Source: Nostoc sp. S13 (lineage in GTDB: Bacteria; Cyanobacteriota; Cyanobacteriia; Cyanobacteriales; Nostocaceae). Taken from it: a DNA stretch of 64,000 nt. Under the pieces are notes generated by a model. That model had not been told where the DNA came from. It worked only from the letters and a program-made list of their open reading frames with translations, and did not search any database. Of the stretch, positions 14,281 to 24,889 are shown in pieces; the stretch's first letter is position 1; every line of letters begins with the position of its first letter. Made by a program: the position numbers and the translations under genes. The DNA is taken from contig NZ_JAQYWQ010000007.1 of NCBI RefSeq assembly GCF_029379315.1, positions 1 to 64,000 on the forward strand. Direction: 5' to 3'.

Positions 14281-15135
14281 TTAATGACTAATTAAGGTAA
14301 TCACAGTTACTTCTGGCGGACAAAATAGGCGTCCTGGTTTATAAGTTCCTAAACCCCGATTGACATATAGTTGATTTTTTTCCACCTTGTGAAACCCTTG
14401 CGCCCACTCCCAATATCGCACTACTTTAGAACAGTCTCCCAGGAAAAATGTTACCCAACGCCGTAATTTTTTGGGAATTTGTTTGAGTAGCTTTTTATAA
14501 TAGAGTACTAAAGGCCCAATCCCCGGAATTACGATGTGACCACCGTGGGTATGACCAGATAGTTGCAAATCTACGCGCCATTGTTGCAATATCTTAGCTG
14601 TATCTGGGTTATGGGATAAAACGATGCGGGGTGTAGCCGAGTCTAGTTGATTCATGACTGGTGCGGGGTGGAATTCCCGTGACCAATAATCAGCTAGTCC
14701 TACTAGTGGTAATTCTTTTCCTAGTGGATAGGCGATTTCATTCCAAAGCACATGCACCCCAATGCTAGTTAACGCCTGGGTAACTTCTGCTTTTGAGTGG
14801 CTGTAATAGATATCGTGATTACCAAGTACGGCGTAGATACCATAGCGACTTTGCAGATGTTTGAGTCGAAGCACCAATTGGTGAATTGGCGTGGGATCGT
14901 CAGTTACGTAGTCACCAGTTAATAGAATTAAATCTGGTTCAGCTTCGTTAGTAAGTGCGATCGCTTTTTCTAACATATCTTCTGATAGCCGCAAACCATC
15001 GTAGTGAAAATCTGACAACTGCACTAGCGTTGTACCTTGTAAAGATGCTGGAAGTTCCGCAATCTTAACCCTGATTTTATCTACTCTTAAATGTCCTGTA
15101 AACAACCAATGCATAACGCAACCGATACTCCTCAT
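14281..15135 (-). CDS. Calcineurin-like metallophosphoesterase (YkuE type), copy 2
   Basis: 284 residues. It carries the dimetal phosphoesterase signature: LSDFHYDG, LILLTGDYV, LGNHDIYY, SHNPD and LSGHTHGGH. The YkuE-like group includes membrane-associated lipid or nucleotide pyrophosphatases; the substrate cannot be told here. A short amphipathic/hydrophobic N-terminus (MHWLFTGHLRV) may anchor it. The gene at 15282 upstream on the same strand encodes a protein that is clearly a tandem duplicate, about three quarters identical by eye. The two may be cotranscribed across a 146-bp gap. The second Gly-His-Thr-His motif reads GGHIV here and GGQIV in the other copy. Confidence 0.88.
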   Translation of the reverse strand: MRSIGCVMHWLFTGHLRVDKIRVKIAELPASLQGTTLVQLSDFHYDGLRLSEDMLEKAIALTNEAEPDLILLTGDYVTDDPTPIHQLVLRLKHLQSRYGIYAVLGNHDIYYSHSKAEVTQALTSIGVHVLWNEIAYPLGKELPLVGLADYWSREFHPAPVMNQLDSATPRIVLSHNPDTAKILQQWRVDLQLSGHTHGGHIVIPGIGPLVLYYKKLLKQIPKKLRRWVTFFLGDCSKVVRYWEWAQGFHKVEKNQLYVNRGLGTYKPGRLFCPPEVTVITLISH

Positions 15136-15281
15136 ACCAGCGCTTACAGCTTACCAAAAATCAAAATGTAACTTGAGAAACTGCAATAATTTATGTCATA
15201 TACTCCAGATATAATTAACTAATTGATTTATTTGAAATAGCTGAATTTAGTTATGGGGTTTTTCTTATACTTCCTGTCTTC

Positions 15282-16133
15282 TCATTCACCTTGTAGGGTG
15301 ATTATAGTAACTTCTGGGCGGCAAAATAAGCGTCCTGGGAGGTAAGTTCCCAAACCACGGTTGACATATAGCTGATTTTTTCCTAGTCGATGGAAACCCT
15401 GTGCCCATTCCCAATGGCTGACTACAGAAACATTTATTTGCAAAAATGGGACTAGACGCCGCACTTTTCTGGGTATTTTTTTTACAAGCTTTTCGTAAAA
15501 GAACGCCGCAGGGCCAATTCCCGGAATCACGATTTGCCCACCGTGAGTATGACCCGATAATTGTAAATCGACTCGCCAGGATTGTAATATTTCCGCACTA
15601 TCTGGGTTGTGGGATAAAACGATGCAGGGTGTGTTGGGGTTTAGCTGGTTCATGACTGGTGCGGGGTGGAATTCTCGTGACCAACTATCCGCCAGTCCAA
15701 CGAGTGGCAATTCTTTTCCTAGTGGATAGGCAATTTCGTTCCAAAGGACGTGAATCCCAATGCTAGTAAGGGCATCTGTAATTTCTGCTTTTGCGTGTCT
15801 GTAATATATATCGTGATTGCCAAGAACAGCATATATACCACTGCGACTTTGCAGATGTTTGAGTCGAAGTACCAGTTGGTGAATCGGTGTCGGCTCATCA
15901 GTTACGTAGTCACCAGTTAATAGAATTAAATCTGGTTCAGCTTCGTTAGTAACTGCGATCGTTTTTTCTAACATGTCTTCCGACAGCCGCAAACCATCGT
16001 AGTGAAAATCTGACAGCTGCACCAGTTTCTTACCTTGTAACGATGCAGGCAATCCTGCAATGTTAACCGTCAATTTCTCTATACTCAACGGCCCAGATAA
16101 TAACCAATGCATAAGACGTTCAATAAAGCTCAA
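15282..16133 (-). CDS. Calcineurin-like metallophosphoesterase (YkuE type), copy 1
   Basis: 283 residues with the full metal-binding set: LSDFHYDG near residue 40, LTGDYV, LGNHDIYY near 105, LSHNPD and LSGHTHGGQ. It is a tandem paralogue of the gene at 14281. Divergence is greatest in the C-terminal basic region between the GHTHGG motif and QLYVNRGLGTY, suggesting either different membrane contact or relaxed constraint. This copy has the canonical GHTHGGQ motif. The substrate is unknown. No other operon partner is seen, and upstream (16134-16415) is AT-rich promoter DNA. Confidence 0.88.
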   Translation of the reverse strand: MSFIERLMHWLLSGPLSIEKLTVNIAGLPASLQGKKLVQLSDFHYDGLRLSEDMLEKTIAVTNEAEPDLILLTGDYVTDEPTPIHQLVLRLKHLQSRSGIYAVLGNHDIYYRHAKAEITDALTSIGIHVLWNEIAYPLGKELPLVGLADSWSREFHPAPVMNQLNPNTPCIVLSHNPDSAEILQSWRVDLQLSGHTHGGQIVIPGIGPAAFFYEKLVKKIPRKVRRLVPFLQINVSVVSHWEWAQGFHRLGKNQLYVNRGLGTYLPGRLFCRPEVTIITLQGE

Positions 16134-16415
16134 TCATAGCGCTTACAGCTTAACTGAACATTGTCAGATTGTGTGTACCGACCAGTGCAACTTATTGAAA
16201 ATTTTATAAAACTTCTAGATTTTAGTGTATTTATACTTATTTAAATCAGACGTAACTTTGCAGTTAATTTATCTTAGAGTATGGTGCATTTCTTTGAAAG
16301 AGGAGAATAGTGATTCATGTTACGTATATAAATCAACTATACGGACAGGGTTTATTTTGATAAAGTATACTGTATTACATACTATCTCATTGAAGCAAAA
16401 CACTTAAAGTTGTTT

Positions 16416-17582
16416 ATGTCATCACCATTAGAGCCACAATTCAGCGAGGATTTTACCCACTTTGAGCAGCACGTAGCAAAACTGCTCCATAAAGCAGATT
16501 GGACAGTTGAAACTGCAAAGACCAATCAACCTGGCTATGATCTAGTGGTCAAAAAAGGAAACCTAGTTGGTGTTGTTCAGGTTAAATGGTTAAAAGGTAA
16601 CGTAACAGCGCCGCAGCTTTTAAAGTTTGCTGACTTTTTAGATTCTGACGAAGGCAAAAAATTTAATTTTGGTTGGTTCATAACCACAAAAGGATTTGGT
16701 GGCCCAGCATTGGCATTAATCAGAACCTGGCGTAAAGATACTAAAGTTCGCTGTGGGATTGCCCATGAAAATAAGCTGGTTGCGATTGATGGCAGTTTCG
16801 ACGATAAGGACGGATATAATCGGAATCCTAACGGAGAAACTATGCCAAAAAAAGTTTATTTTGGAGTTTTTACCTGTAAAGGCGGAGTAGGAAAAACAAC
16901 TGTAGCAGGGCATTTAGCAGGAGCATTAGCGCTGCAAGGATTTAATGTGGCACTTGTGGACTTAGACCCAGAACAAAATCTGCAAAAATTAGTAGGTGAT
17001 GGTGTTTTTGTTCCCAATCCTAAAGGGGTAGGTACAACTATTCAAGTGTTTGATGGAAAGGATTGGAATGAAGATGCTGCCCGTGACTGTCAAATCGTAA
17101 TTTGCGATTGCTCACCAGCACTAGAACGTAATCCCTCAGAGCTAGTTAAGCGATTAGATTATTGTATTATCCCAACTACCTTCAACCCACTGGGAATAAG
17201 CAAACATGGTAAAGTTATTCAATCAACTGTTGTAGATATACGTAAAGTCAATAATGAAGCTCATTTATTTGTGCTAGTTAACAATTTTAAAGATCCTGGA
17301 ATTAAGCGTTTAAGGCTTTTAAAAGAAGTGTATTCTAATGCTTATAAGGAAATTAGCAAGATAGATAATAAATTTCATTGTATAGATCCAGAAGAAGTTT
17401 GTATTCGGGCTAGCGACCTCCTTTATTACTGGGGTATACATATACTCGAAAACCCAGAAAATCCTGCCAGTAGATTAGCGTTTGATCTGGTTGGCGGAAG
17501 ATGCTACCCGCGTGAAGATTTTATCAACTTAGCAGATTACATTGAAAGAAAAGCTGGTATAGGAATTCTTAGAGCTAATTAA
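16416..17582 (+). CDS. Mrr-like restriction-endonuclease domain fused to a ParA/MinD-type ATPase
   Basis: 388 residues from the ATG at 16416; a TTG two codons earlier is also possible. Residues 1-125 look like an Mrr/restriction-endonuclease-like domain: FEQHVAKLL with Glu17, then GYDLVV with Asp42, then VVQVKW with Gln55 and Lys57, fitting the E...D...QxK active-site pattern. After a linker, residues 147-388 form a ParA/MinD ATPase: deviant Walker [10 protein letters not shown] with signature Lys155 and Lys160, switch VALVDLDPEQ, and Walker B IVICDCSPAL. ParA proteins dimerise on ATP and bind DNA or membranes; Mrr domains cut or bind modified DNA. The fusion suggests an ATP-gated nuclease, perhaps in defence or plasmid control. 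It has no ParB partner and no operon neighbour. Confidence 0.82.
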   Translation: MSSPLEPQFSEDFTHFEQHVAKLLHKADWTVETAKTNQPGYDLVVKKGNLVGVVQVKWLKGNVTAPQLLKFADFLDSDEGKKFNFGWFITTKGFGGPALALIRTWRKDTKVRCGIAHENKLVAIDGSFDDKDGYNRNPNGETMPKKVYFGVFTCKGGVGKTTVAGHLAGALALQGFNVALVDLDPEQNLQKLVGDGVFVPNPKGVGTTIQVFDGKDWNEDAARDCQIVICDCSPALERNPSELVKRLDYCIIPTTFNPLGISKHGKVIQSTVVDIRKVNNEAHLFVLVNNFKDPGIKRLRLLKEVYSNAYKEISKIDNKFHCIDPEEVCIRASDLLYYWGIHILENPENPASRLAFDLVGGRCYPREDFINLADYIERKAGIGILRAN

Positions 17583-17750: not shown

Positions 17751-17790
17751 AAAAATAACACCTACCTGCAATTAAGGTGGCGTTATTTTT
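17751..17790. terminator. Bidirectional hairpin terminator
   Basis: AAAATAACACC...GGTGGCGTTATTTT forms a stem with A-rich and T-rich flanks on both sides, between the end of the Mrr-ParA gene (+) and the end of the small membrane-protein gene (-). It suits both convergent genes. Confidence 0.65.
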
Positions 17791-21796: not shown

Positions 21797-22360
21797 ATGA
21801 GCGCCACAACTACTGAACCTCTCACCCTGGAAGAGTTTCTGAACCTCCCAGAAACAAAGCCTGCAAGCGAATATATTAACAAAGAGATTATTCAAAAACC
21901 AATGCCGAAAGGGAGACACAGCCGCTTACAAGGTAAACTTTGTGCTGTTGTCAATCAAGTCACGGAGAATCAAAAGATTGCCTATGCGTTTCCCGAATTA
22001 CGGTGTACTTTTGGGAAACGCTCAACTGTAACGGATGTGGCTGTATTTCAGTGGGAACGCATACCGTTCACCGTTGATGAGCAAGTACCTGATAATTTTG
22101 AACTTCCACCAGACTGGACGATTGAAATTTTCTCGCCAGAACAAAAACCCAACAAAGTAATTGGGAATATTCTTCACTGTCTGAATTATGGCAGCCGCCT
22201 GGGATGGTTTCTTGACCCTGATGACCTGAGTATCTTGGTATTTCTAGCAGAGCAACAGCCAGTGCTACTCTAGGGAGAAGATTTTTTGCCTGTATTACCA
22301 GAAATTCAACTTGCACTAACCGTCAATCAAGTTTTTGGATGGTTAAAGATGGGTGGCTAG
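21797..22360 (+). pseudogene. Uma2-family gene with in-frame amber stop
   Basis: The first 158 codons encode a Uma2 (DUF820) protein (LTLEEFLNLPETKPASEYI, VTDVAVFQW, WTIEIFSPEQKPNKV, LGWFLDPDD). A TAG at 22271-22273 interrupts it. In the same frame the next 28 codons (LPVLPEIQLALTVNQVFGWL, then KMGG) are the normal Uma2 C-terminus, ending at a TAG at 22358-22360. The gene is therefore full length apart from one nonsense codon. The truncated protein keeps the PD-(D/E)XK core and might fold. It stands alone. Confidence 0.8.
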
Positions 22361-23290: not shown

Positions 23291-24889
23291 TTAACTCAAC
23301 TGTGCCACAAGTTGATTTTCCAAAAGTGTATCATTAGTTAACAAGTCTTCAACAGTAATTCGCAAAAAGCGTTGTTGATCAACTTCAAAGAGGATTTTTA
23401 TCCGATCGCTTCCGGGATATCCGGCTGGTGTCAGTTGGGCAATTGTCCTCGCGCCTTCTTGATCGTTGAGGGGTTTGACCCTGGTTTCACTACTGTCCAG
23501 ACGGCGAGTAATCAGGCGATCGCCATCAAAATAAACTTCGGTATTGCCTGTATCTGCTCCCAATTCTCCCATAATTAATTCAATACTAGGTTGATTTTCC
23601 AGAGAAGCGCCTAAGACTAATTCCACTGGCTGACTCATTGGATATGCCTGTCCAGCTTTAATCAGAGAATGCCATTTGTGACGCTGATTGCGGCGATCCC
23701 AGTAGCGGATACCATAACTATGATACAGAAAGTCTTTTATTTGTACCCCTTGTGCTAGATGTAATGCACCTTGAGCGATCGCTTCAAAGGGACGTTCGCA
23801 ACGGATTTTTTCTGGCTGAAAATACTGTTTGATCCATGTCTGCACTGCCGGTAATTGCACTGTTCCACCAACTAACAAAACTGCATTAATATCTGGAAGT
23901 TCTATCCCTTGGCGTCTTGCTTGCTGCAACAGTGTTGTCATTGACTCATCGAGTAACTCAAAAAATGCGTGTTCTTTGAGGATATTTTCAAAAGTGTCGC
24001 GGTTTAATTCCAGTTCATAGCTTTCAAATGTCTCATCATCAAAATAAACTTCACTAGCTTGGTTTTGGGTTGATAGCTGAATTTTCACCCGTTCTGCCAA
24101 TCGTGTTGTCAAGGGACTTATCGTCAGTTGTTGAGTTTTGGCAAAGTAATCTACCAACCAATTATCAATATCAGTACCGCCCAAATTTTGCCCAGCTTTC
24201 GCCAGGACACGGGCAGTTTTGACTTTTTGTTTTGAGTCTTCAGCCAAGGACTTATTGCCCCACTTAAGGATAAATCCCAAGGGCTTTGTGCTTGCTTGCA
24301 CACCTTGATCTAACCGCACAAGGGACAAATCCAAAGTACCGCCACCAAAGTCAATCACCAAGAGAATTTCTTGATCTGCCAAGCCATAACCCAAGGCGGC
24401 GGCTGTGGGTTCATCTAGCATTCGCACCTGTTCGACGGGAAGGGATTGACAAACTTTCCCCAACCAGTGACGATAGGCTTCAAAGCTGTCTACGGGTACA
24501 GTTAAAACTAGAGAATCTAACCCACCTTGCAGAGGCGCTAGTTGTTCAATTACTTGGGTGAGGAACCATTGCCCTACTCGTTCAAAGGTGACAACTTGCC
24601 CATCTAGTTCGGGTAAGAAACCTTGGATATTTGCACCGATACCGCGCTTGAAGCTGCGGAAAAATCGCGTTTCGCCTTTGAGGTCAAGACCGCGATCGCG
24701 TACTTGCTGCCCTACTAAAACTTTATTTTGTCTTGCGTCTTCAACATAAACCAAACTGGGAATCAGTGGCGGATTGAGACTTTGTTTAATTGATAAACCT
24801 GGTAGATTCAGGGTTTCTGGCTGCTGGGTTACGGGGTTCCAACGAGCAATGACTGTGTTGCTAGTACCAAAATCGATTGCGATCGCCAT
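23291..24889 (-). CDS. Hsp70-family protein (DnaK-like ATPase)
   Basis: 532 residues, about 100 shorter than DnaK. The nucleotide-binding domain has all phosphate and adenosine motifs: MAIAIDFGTSNTVIARWN (residues 1-18), VIDFGGGTLDLSLV near 180, and VLLVGGTVQLPAVQ near 340. The C-terminal part is a short beta-rich region without the helical lid and without a C-terminal EEVD-like tail. It is therefore a divergent Hsp70 of the cyanobacterial accessory type, cytosolic, with unknown clients. No grpE or dnaJ is adjacent. Its stop codon abuts the end of the vapC-like pseudogene with no gap. Confidence 0.9.
   Translation of the reverse strand: MAIAIDFGTSNTVIARWNPVTQQPETLNLPGLSIKQSLNPPLIPSLVYVEDARQNKVLVGQQVRDRGLDLKGETRFFRSFKRGIGANIQGFLPELDGQVVTFERVGQWFLTQVIEQLAPLQGGLDSLVLTVPVDSFEAYRHWLGKVCQSLPVEQVRMLDEPTAAALGYGLADQEILLVIDFGGGTLDLSLVRLDQGVQASTKPLGFILKWGNKSLAEDSKQKVKTARVLAKAGQNLGGTDIDNWLVDYFAKTQQLTISPLTTRLAERVKIQLSTQNQASEVYFDDETFESYELELNRDTFENILKEHAFFELLDESMTTLLQQARRQGIELPDINAVLLVGGTVQLPAVQTWIKQYFQPEKIRCERPFEAIAQGALHLAQGVQIKDFLYHSYGIRYWDRRNQRHKWHSLIKAGQAYPMSQPVELVLGASLENQPSIELIMGELGADTGNTEVYFDGDRLITRRLDSSETRVKPLNDQEGARTIAQLTPAGYPGSDRIKILFEVDQQRFLRITVEDLLTNDTLLENQLVAQLS

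Follow-up and report, generated by a model that had tools for sequence, protein, structure and literature searches.

The window analyzed here, a stretch of 64,000 nucleotides from Nostoc sp. S13, contains a gene that encodes, in one chain, a predicted Mrr-type PD-(D/E)XK domain and a predicted ParA-type ATPase (Table 1). This combination had been put forward in a preliminary description of the locus, and it holds: the gene is one intact open reading frame, uninterrupted by internal stops, and both domains score above the respective Pfam cut-offs. In the window protein, Mrr_cat (PF04471) matched residues 14-103 (42.6 bits, E 7.6e-11; cut-off 21), CbiA matched residues 154-294 (49.1 bits; cut-off 25.4) and the best stretch of AAA_31 covered residues 151-191 (46.4 bits; cut-off 27). 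Moreover, Mrr_cat and CbiA were both matched in 24 of 24 family members (Pfam, E <= 0.1). A TTG at 16410 is an alternative start that would add 2 residues; the methionine of close relatives, the starts of which were set by a mechanical rule, aligns with the ATG at 16416. Terminator-like hairpins, one of which follows the fusion gene, number two in the region (both strands), versus 1.1 expected from shuffles.

Table 1. Features of the fusion locus, in window coordinates
Feature	Position	Strand	Evidence
Mrr-ParA fusion gene, 388 aa plus stop	16416..17582	+	ORF reading and homologues
Mrr_cat nuclease domain, residues 14-103, with E17, D42, Q55, K57	16455..16724	+	Pfam (protein and whole-genome search), hhalign to E. 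coli Mrr
Variable linker, residues 123-145	16782..16850	+	Sequence and length differ among homologues (alignment, codon comparison)
ParA-type ATPase, residues 146-388: KGGVGKTT (signature K155, K160), D182/D184, Walker B D231, family-specific C-terminal block ~295-388	16851..17579	+	Profile and alignment evidence
Terminator-like hairpin, then T run, ~180 bp past the fusion stop	17762..17780	+	Consensus match only
Divergent calcineurin-like phosphoesterase, conserved neighbour	15282..16133	-	Pfam

The catalytic pattern (D/E)..(D/E/Q)xK is present in the window protein as E17, D42, Q55 and K57, and hhalign to E. coli Mrr (E 1.3e-7, 89 columns) aligns these residues with the glutamate, the aspartate and the QxK of that enzyme. 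Translation and alignment place the four residues, as well as K155 of the ATPase, at the positions that had been given for them. As described in an excerpt of PMC3874153, Mrr-cat is a PD-(D/E)XK variant with the pattern (D/E)..(D/E/Q)xK, which alone does not dictate modification dependence; Pfam recognized no modified-base recognition or specificity domain in the window protein. All four nuclease residues are kept in 26 of 30 sequences. Q55 is replaced by cysteine in L030, L036 and L038 (Scytonema, Brasilonema), and L047 has E17 changed to R and D42 to G, with an aspartate one position earlier; the ATPase motifs are intact in all of these, which are natural candidates for nuclease-altered forms. 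Three more Mrr_cat loci above the Pfam cut-off (C122, C12 and C153) are present in the genome of the window.

ParA proteins form, upon ATP binding, a sandwich dimer via the signature lysine; the dimer binds DNA, and hydrolysis resets it. The corresponding residues of the fusion, K155, K160, D182, D184 and D231, are kept in 30 of 30 sequences and make up the deviant Walker A, switch I and Walker B motifs. The best NCBIfam model was ParA_partition, at 56.5 bits far below its equivalog cut-off of 180, and the NCBI MinD model scored 25.6 bits versus a cut-off of 212.9. Alignment by hhalign to a Burkholderia plasmid ParA (E 3.6e-17) extended over 139 columns, from Walker A to beyond Walker B, and that to E. 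coli MinD over only 42 columns around Walker A; the best solved structure by sequence (phmmer) was plasmid ParF, 4dzz. The ATPase originally proposed as ParA/MinD is therefore more aptly described as a ParA of the ParF/partition type. The last 90 residues, located outside the Pfam match, are strongly conserved in the family. A tblastn alignment of a plasmid ParA with a member of the divergent group F2 (see below) runs up to residue 376 at 27% identity, so that the ATPase part resembles an entire ParA that carries a C-terminal block of its own.

The full-length fusion was found in 7 of 59 near genomes, and 6 of these 7 belong to the same genus (35 genomes, own included). A pattern scan, which used one genome per species and patterns from the window protein and therefore detects close relatives only, yielded 18 loci with the fusion, 4 of them in genomes also met among the near genomes. 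All 18 are cyanobacterial by title: Nostoc, Dendronalium, Anabaena, Scytonema, Brasilonema, Rhizonema, Cyanothece and two uncultured. A profile search, in which up to five first-look candidates were scored per genome, recovered the full-length fusion 14 times, in 11 of 386 cyanobacterial genomes (own included), always with E 2.7e-153 or better; beyond those 14, nothing reached 1e-25 or better in the 386 genomes. A further search came out with the same 11 genomes.

Identity to the window protein ranges from 39 to 92% among 23 other aligned members, of which 18 (F1) are 66-92% and 5 (F2) are 39-46% identical. Three of the 11 family-holding genomes (G051, G350 and G426) carry one F1 and one F2 member each, at different loci. 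In the tree, F1 forms one fully supported clade of 25 rows, and the Scytonemataceae, the Rhizonema and the seven closest Nostoc rows each group together; resolution is missing at 12 of 27 inner branches. Under midpoint rooting, the five F2 rows split into two groups, one of them with a very long branch (L047), and F2 is a label by identity, not a demonstrated clade.

K57, K155, K160, D182, D184 and D231 are invariant across 24 aligned sequences. When the window gene was compared with eight relatives, dN/dS ranged from 0.08 to 0.31 for the Mrr part and from 0.07 to 0.23 for the ParA part, with the latter below the former in 7 of the 8 comparisons; the linker is hypervariable, and dN/dS is unreliable there. 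In these eight pairs, purifying selection thus acts on both parts, somewhat more strongly on the ATPase, and this speaks against the nuclease being a passive remnant in the majority of members. Nevertheless, because the nuclease pattern is altered in 4 of 30 sequences and the ATPase residues in none, cutting may not be the universal function of the family. In the four closest relatives, synonymous divergence was lower in the nuclease part (16416-16781; 0.08-0.14) than in the ATPase part (16851-17579; 0.16-0.27). This difference, which was not clear in the four more distant relatives compared, could reflect recombination, uneven constraint or chance.

The search for the same fusion elsewhere, suggested in the preliminary description, also bears on the possibility named there that two separate genes were joined by an assembly error. 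The same full-length fusion recurs in separate assemblies, with 18 pattern-scan loci and 14 full-length profile matches spread over 11 of the 386 cyanobacterial genomes, which excludes both assembly error and chance resemblance. Given, in addition, the absence of internal stops and the constrained codons in both domains, we consider an artefact of either kind vanishingly improbable.

To trace the history of the site, we compared the fusion with the adjacent phosphoesterase. Distances among the fusion proteins and among the phosphoesterases are correlated (Mantel r 0.79, a value reached in 0 of 5000 permutations; 18 of the 19 loci), as expected of vertical descent. Thus, descent looks vertical at a fixed chromosomal site, and the shared site and the tree imply that the fusion probably predates the split of several cyanobacterial families. 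Of the 29 same-genus genomes that lack the fusion, 20 were inspected at this site; several of these regions end at contig ends. At one of them (L191, genome G011), the 5' flank extends to the equivalent of 16299 and is followed by the last 16-17 codons and the stop of the fusion gene, with ~1.2 kb missing in between. Because the 3' end of the gene is kept there, the gene was once present and then deleted. Some 3' flank is retained at L182, L187 and L192; L197 and L198, where nothing but the Walker A stretch was matched, and weakly (E 0.007 and 0.004), were left out of the count. The fusion gene is old at its site and, given its patchy presence and the documented deletion, dispensable, which fits a restriction-like role without proving one.

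Mobile elements were searched for relatives of the fusion. No match to the window protein was obtained by tblastn in plasmids or phages at 1e-5, and searches at relaxed settings, each with one F2 member as the query, yielded partial matches, none of which, among the matches listed, covered at least 80% of the query. Several plasmid alignments among the matches listed reach query residues 20-50, in the nuclease stretch, and most of these are annotated as RepA. Of the unannotated plasmid matches, H8 was inspected (H1, H9 and H13 were left out) and, judged by eye, is a RepA-like ORF with a different N-terminal part; the phage match H31 is likewise ParA-like with a different N-terminal part. The viral collection contained no relative of the window protein. 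Furthermore, the 80 viral loci listed, out of 233 confirmed with the family profile, match it from residue 127 on, and in the open frames of those 80 no match starts before model position 118. A mobile or viral origin was rejected, as no full-length match was among those listed in the plasmid, phage and viral searches.

Clustering of the neighbours revealed no gene common to all 33 fusion loci (28 F1, 5 F2). The divergent phosphoesterase lies at most 3 ORFs upstream of the fusion in 19 of the 33, always in opposite orientation; at the other 14, some of which are on short contigs, it does not lie within that distance (six ORFs off in L057). Genes of the window located further upstream recur in 10 to 14 of the 33 loci. 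The phosphoesterase is far commoner than the fusion, being present in 51 of 59 genomes versus 7 of 59, so that the recurrent pairing reflects conserved order, not partnership, and the phosphoesterase was rejected as a functional partner. In the window, two tandem calcineurin-like phosphoesterase paralogues occupy 14281-16133; two such genes occur in 34 of 35 same-genus genomes, and seven of the second copies and one first copy carry one stop inside the match.

Pfam was run on 30 neighbours from 11 loci, ten in the window and 20 at ten other loci; at the other 22 of the 33 loci the neighbours were clustered only. The 20 from other loci include Mg-chelatase, tRNA nucleotidyltransferase, ABC transporter, molybdopterin oxidoreductase, glycosyl hydrolase, glutathione transferase, ion channel, solute-binding protein, hydrolase, acyl-CoA dehydrogenase, aminotransferase and two Uma2 proteins, along with one protein with a domain of unknown function and four without a match. 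Over all 30, seven had no match at 1e-5 or unnamed domains only, and the recognized neighbours are metabolic and transport genes. No ParB-type domain and no methylase were found among the 30. The lack of a recognized cognate methyltransferase among these neighbours is what type IV restriction would show, and the neighbouring ParB-type gene of ParA partition was likewise not recognized among them. Thus, with no partner detected in the 33 clustered neighbourhoods or by Pfam on the 30 neighbours, the earlier claim that no partner gene is adjacent was borne out, and a one-protein system is the simplest reading. A further gene of the window (23291-24889) encodes a 532-aa Hsp70-like ATPase with a weaker MreB-type match (Pfam).

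A Uma2 putative restriction endonuclease (Pfam E 2.4e-24) is encoded at 21797-22273, 4.2 kb from the fusion, and Uma2 genes lie directly beside the fusion in L057 and L058. The two clusters that contain these three Uma2 genes occur in 7 of 33 loci (three members Pfam-searched). However, the genome of the window has 112 Uma2 matches, several with internal stops, so that such nearness is expected by chance, and Uma2 was rejected as a partner.

To assess the defence context, PADLOC models were searched. The window protein had one match, PDC-M28B, to residues 117-186 only, and no model covered most of the protein. Across 24 members (E <= 0.01), PDC-M28B was matched in 24, ZorD in 12, PDC-S73 in 7, PDC-S02 in 5, mad8 in 4 and mREase_IV in 2. 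Among the ten window neighbours, the Uma2 protein gave the one match, to the candidate model PDC-S03, and we recognized no defence island or mobile element at the fusion loci. Neither a model over most of the protein nor defence neighbours, which mark the known anti-phage systems, were thus found. Vertical descent at a fixed locus is unusual for defence genes. Together with the metabolic and transport neighbours, the lack of a full-length mobile match and the single candidate PADLOC neighbour, it places the context against the antiphage or antiplasmid role suggested in the preliminary description. In the open-access literature, we found no title or abstract on an Mrr-ParA fusion.

Our preferred reading, to which we assign a probability of about 0.4, is that the protein would be a single-chain, ATP-gated DNA-surveillance nuclease with a surveillance or restriction role, in which Mrr cutting is licensed by a DNA-bound ParA dimer. 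Surveillance or restriction appears more likely than partition. Upon ATP binding, the ParA part would form the usual sandwich dimer via the signature K155, and the dimer would bind DNA without sequence specificity. Dimerization would place two Mrr domains on one duplex, so that cutting would occur only in the ATP-bound, DNA-loaded state, that is, under the control of ATP; hydrolysis would then release and reset the enzyme. In this way, foreign or aberrant (for example, modified) DNA might be removed by a stand-alone restriction-like enzyme that needs neither a methylase nor ParB. In favour of this reading, both domains exceed their Pfam cut-offs, the catalytic residues are largely kept and the codons of both parts constrained, and neither a constant companion gene nor a ParB or methylase was recognized among the neighbours examined. 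The PADLOC matches of 12 of 24 members to ZorD and of 2 of 24 to mREase_IV, counted per protein whatever the stretch matched, also agree with it, and patchy presence and deletion in at least one genome are as expected of an accessory enzyme. Against it stand the altered nuclease pattern in 4 of 30 sequences, the lack of a recognized defence island or mobile element, the apparently vertical descent at a fixed locus and the lack of a Pfam domain for modified-base recognition. The bolder proposition, namely a new class of NTP-dependent nucleases with the ParA sandwich dimer as the switch, two Mrr sites assembled on DNA and a nucleoid-patrolling surveillance or restriction function, we regard as tentative and on balance doubtful.

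Alternatively, the protein might be a ParA-like ATPase for positioning or partition whose Mrr domain binds DNA or targets cargo and cuts weakly or not at all; this we consider rather unlikely. Type Ia ParA/RepA proteins carry an N-terminal helix-turn-helix, and the domain order of the fusion mirrors theirs, with a DNA-binding domain preceding the ATPase. Furthermore, a match of the family profile to 7npd_A (a Walker A-type ATPase of 407 residues) begins at profile position 110, two matches that extend into the N-terminal part, one phage and one plasmid record, encode ParA/RepA-like proteins with, by eye, a helix-turn-helix at the N-terminus, and the ATPase residues are better kept (30 of 30) than the nuclease residues (26 of 30). 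However, DNA binding alone would not need the joint retention of E, D, Q and K seen in those 26; a segregation gene would not be expected to be as rare and dispensable as this one; and the 30 neighbours searched with Pfam include no ParB-type domain.

It is unlikely that the protein is instead an ATP-controlled host nuclease for genome maintenance, acting on branched or damaged DNA as Hjc or NucS do. Hjc and NucS share the nuclease fold, and the host cyanobacteria are polyploid. The fixed chromosomal site, the vertical descent, the co-occurrence of two divergent copies in 3 of 11 genomes and the lack of full-length matches in mobile-element searches would all agree with such a role, whereas the absence of a match in 375 of 386 cyanobacterial genomes (up to five candidates scored per genome) and the deletion in a close relative indicate that core repair does not depend on it. 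NucS_C (E 0.0087) and Hjc (E 0.05) were weakly matched in Pfam, consistent with this reading, but in one member each and far more weakly than Mrr_cat. We consider still less probable, and indeed improbable, an effector that turns its nuclease on its own chromosome in abortive infection. According to an excerpt of PMC7159879, MinD/ParA-like domains (predicted inactive) and Mrr-like REase domains are both effectors in conflict systems of multicellular prokaryotes; the fusion is not mentioned in that excerpt. The fusion, by contrast, has intact ATPase motifs, no sensor or regulator was recognized adjacent to it (Pfam, 30 neighbours) and no PADLOC model spans most of the window protein.

At 388 residues and with no partner found, the protein is small enough for study in purified form with a few point mutants. 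Its presence and absence among close relatives within a single genus, one of which bears the deletion scar at this site, provide natural phenotype comparisons. Among known systems, the type IV restriction endonuclease EcoKMrr of E. coli shares with the fusion the Mrr_cat domain and the E/D/Q/K residues, aligned over 89 columns. However, an excerpt of PMC3874153 describes EcoKMrr with a presumed N-terminal DNA-binding domain and lists no NTP need for it, whereas in the fusion the nuclease is N-terminal and the ATPase follows. Partition ATPases of the ParA family (ParF, plasmid ParA) resemble the fusion in their deviant Walker A motif with the signature lysine, switch aspartates and Walker B motif; in contrast to them, the fusion has no recognized ParB-type neighbour, carries a nuclease ahead of the ATPase and ends in a C-terminal block that is strongly conserved and lies outside the Pfam match. 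The positioning ATPases related to ParA, such as McdA, belong to the same ATPase superfamily as the fusion, but McdA works with McdB, and these proteins are not known to carry a nuclease domain.

The NTPases of McrBC, SauUSI and LlaGI are AAA+ or superfamily-2 helicases. These enzymes and ZorD, which PADLOC labels as a helicase with an Mrr-like nuclease, resemble the fusion in coupling a nuclease to an NTPase, and LlaGI carries Mrr-like motifs according to the excerpt of PMC3874153. The fusion differs from all four in having a predicted ParA dimer switch in place of the AAA+ or helicase module. NTP-dependent nucleases are already known, and the proposed ParA switch would be what is new. Moving and positioning cargo is what ParA-type switches are known for, and NTP-dependent restriction enzymes are known to rely on helicases or AAA+ rings. 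The coupling of a ParA switch to a nuclease within a single conserved polypeptide, if true, would add a third mode of control over DNA cleavage.
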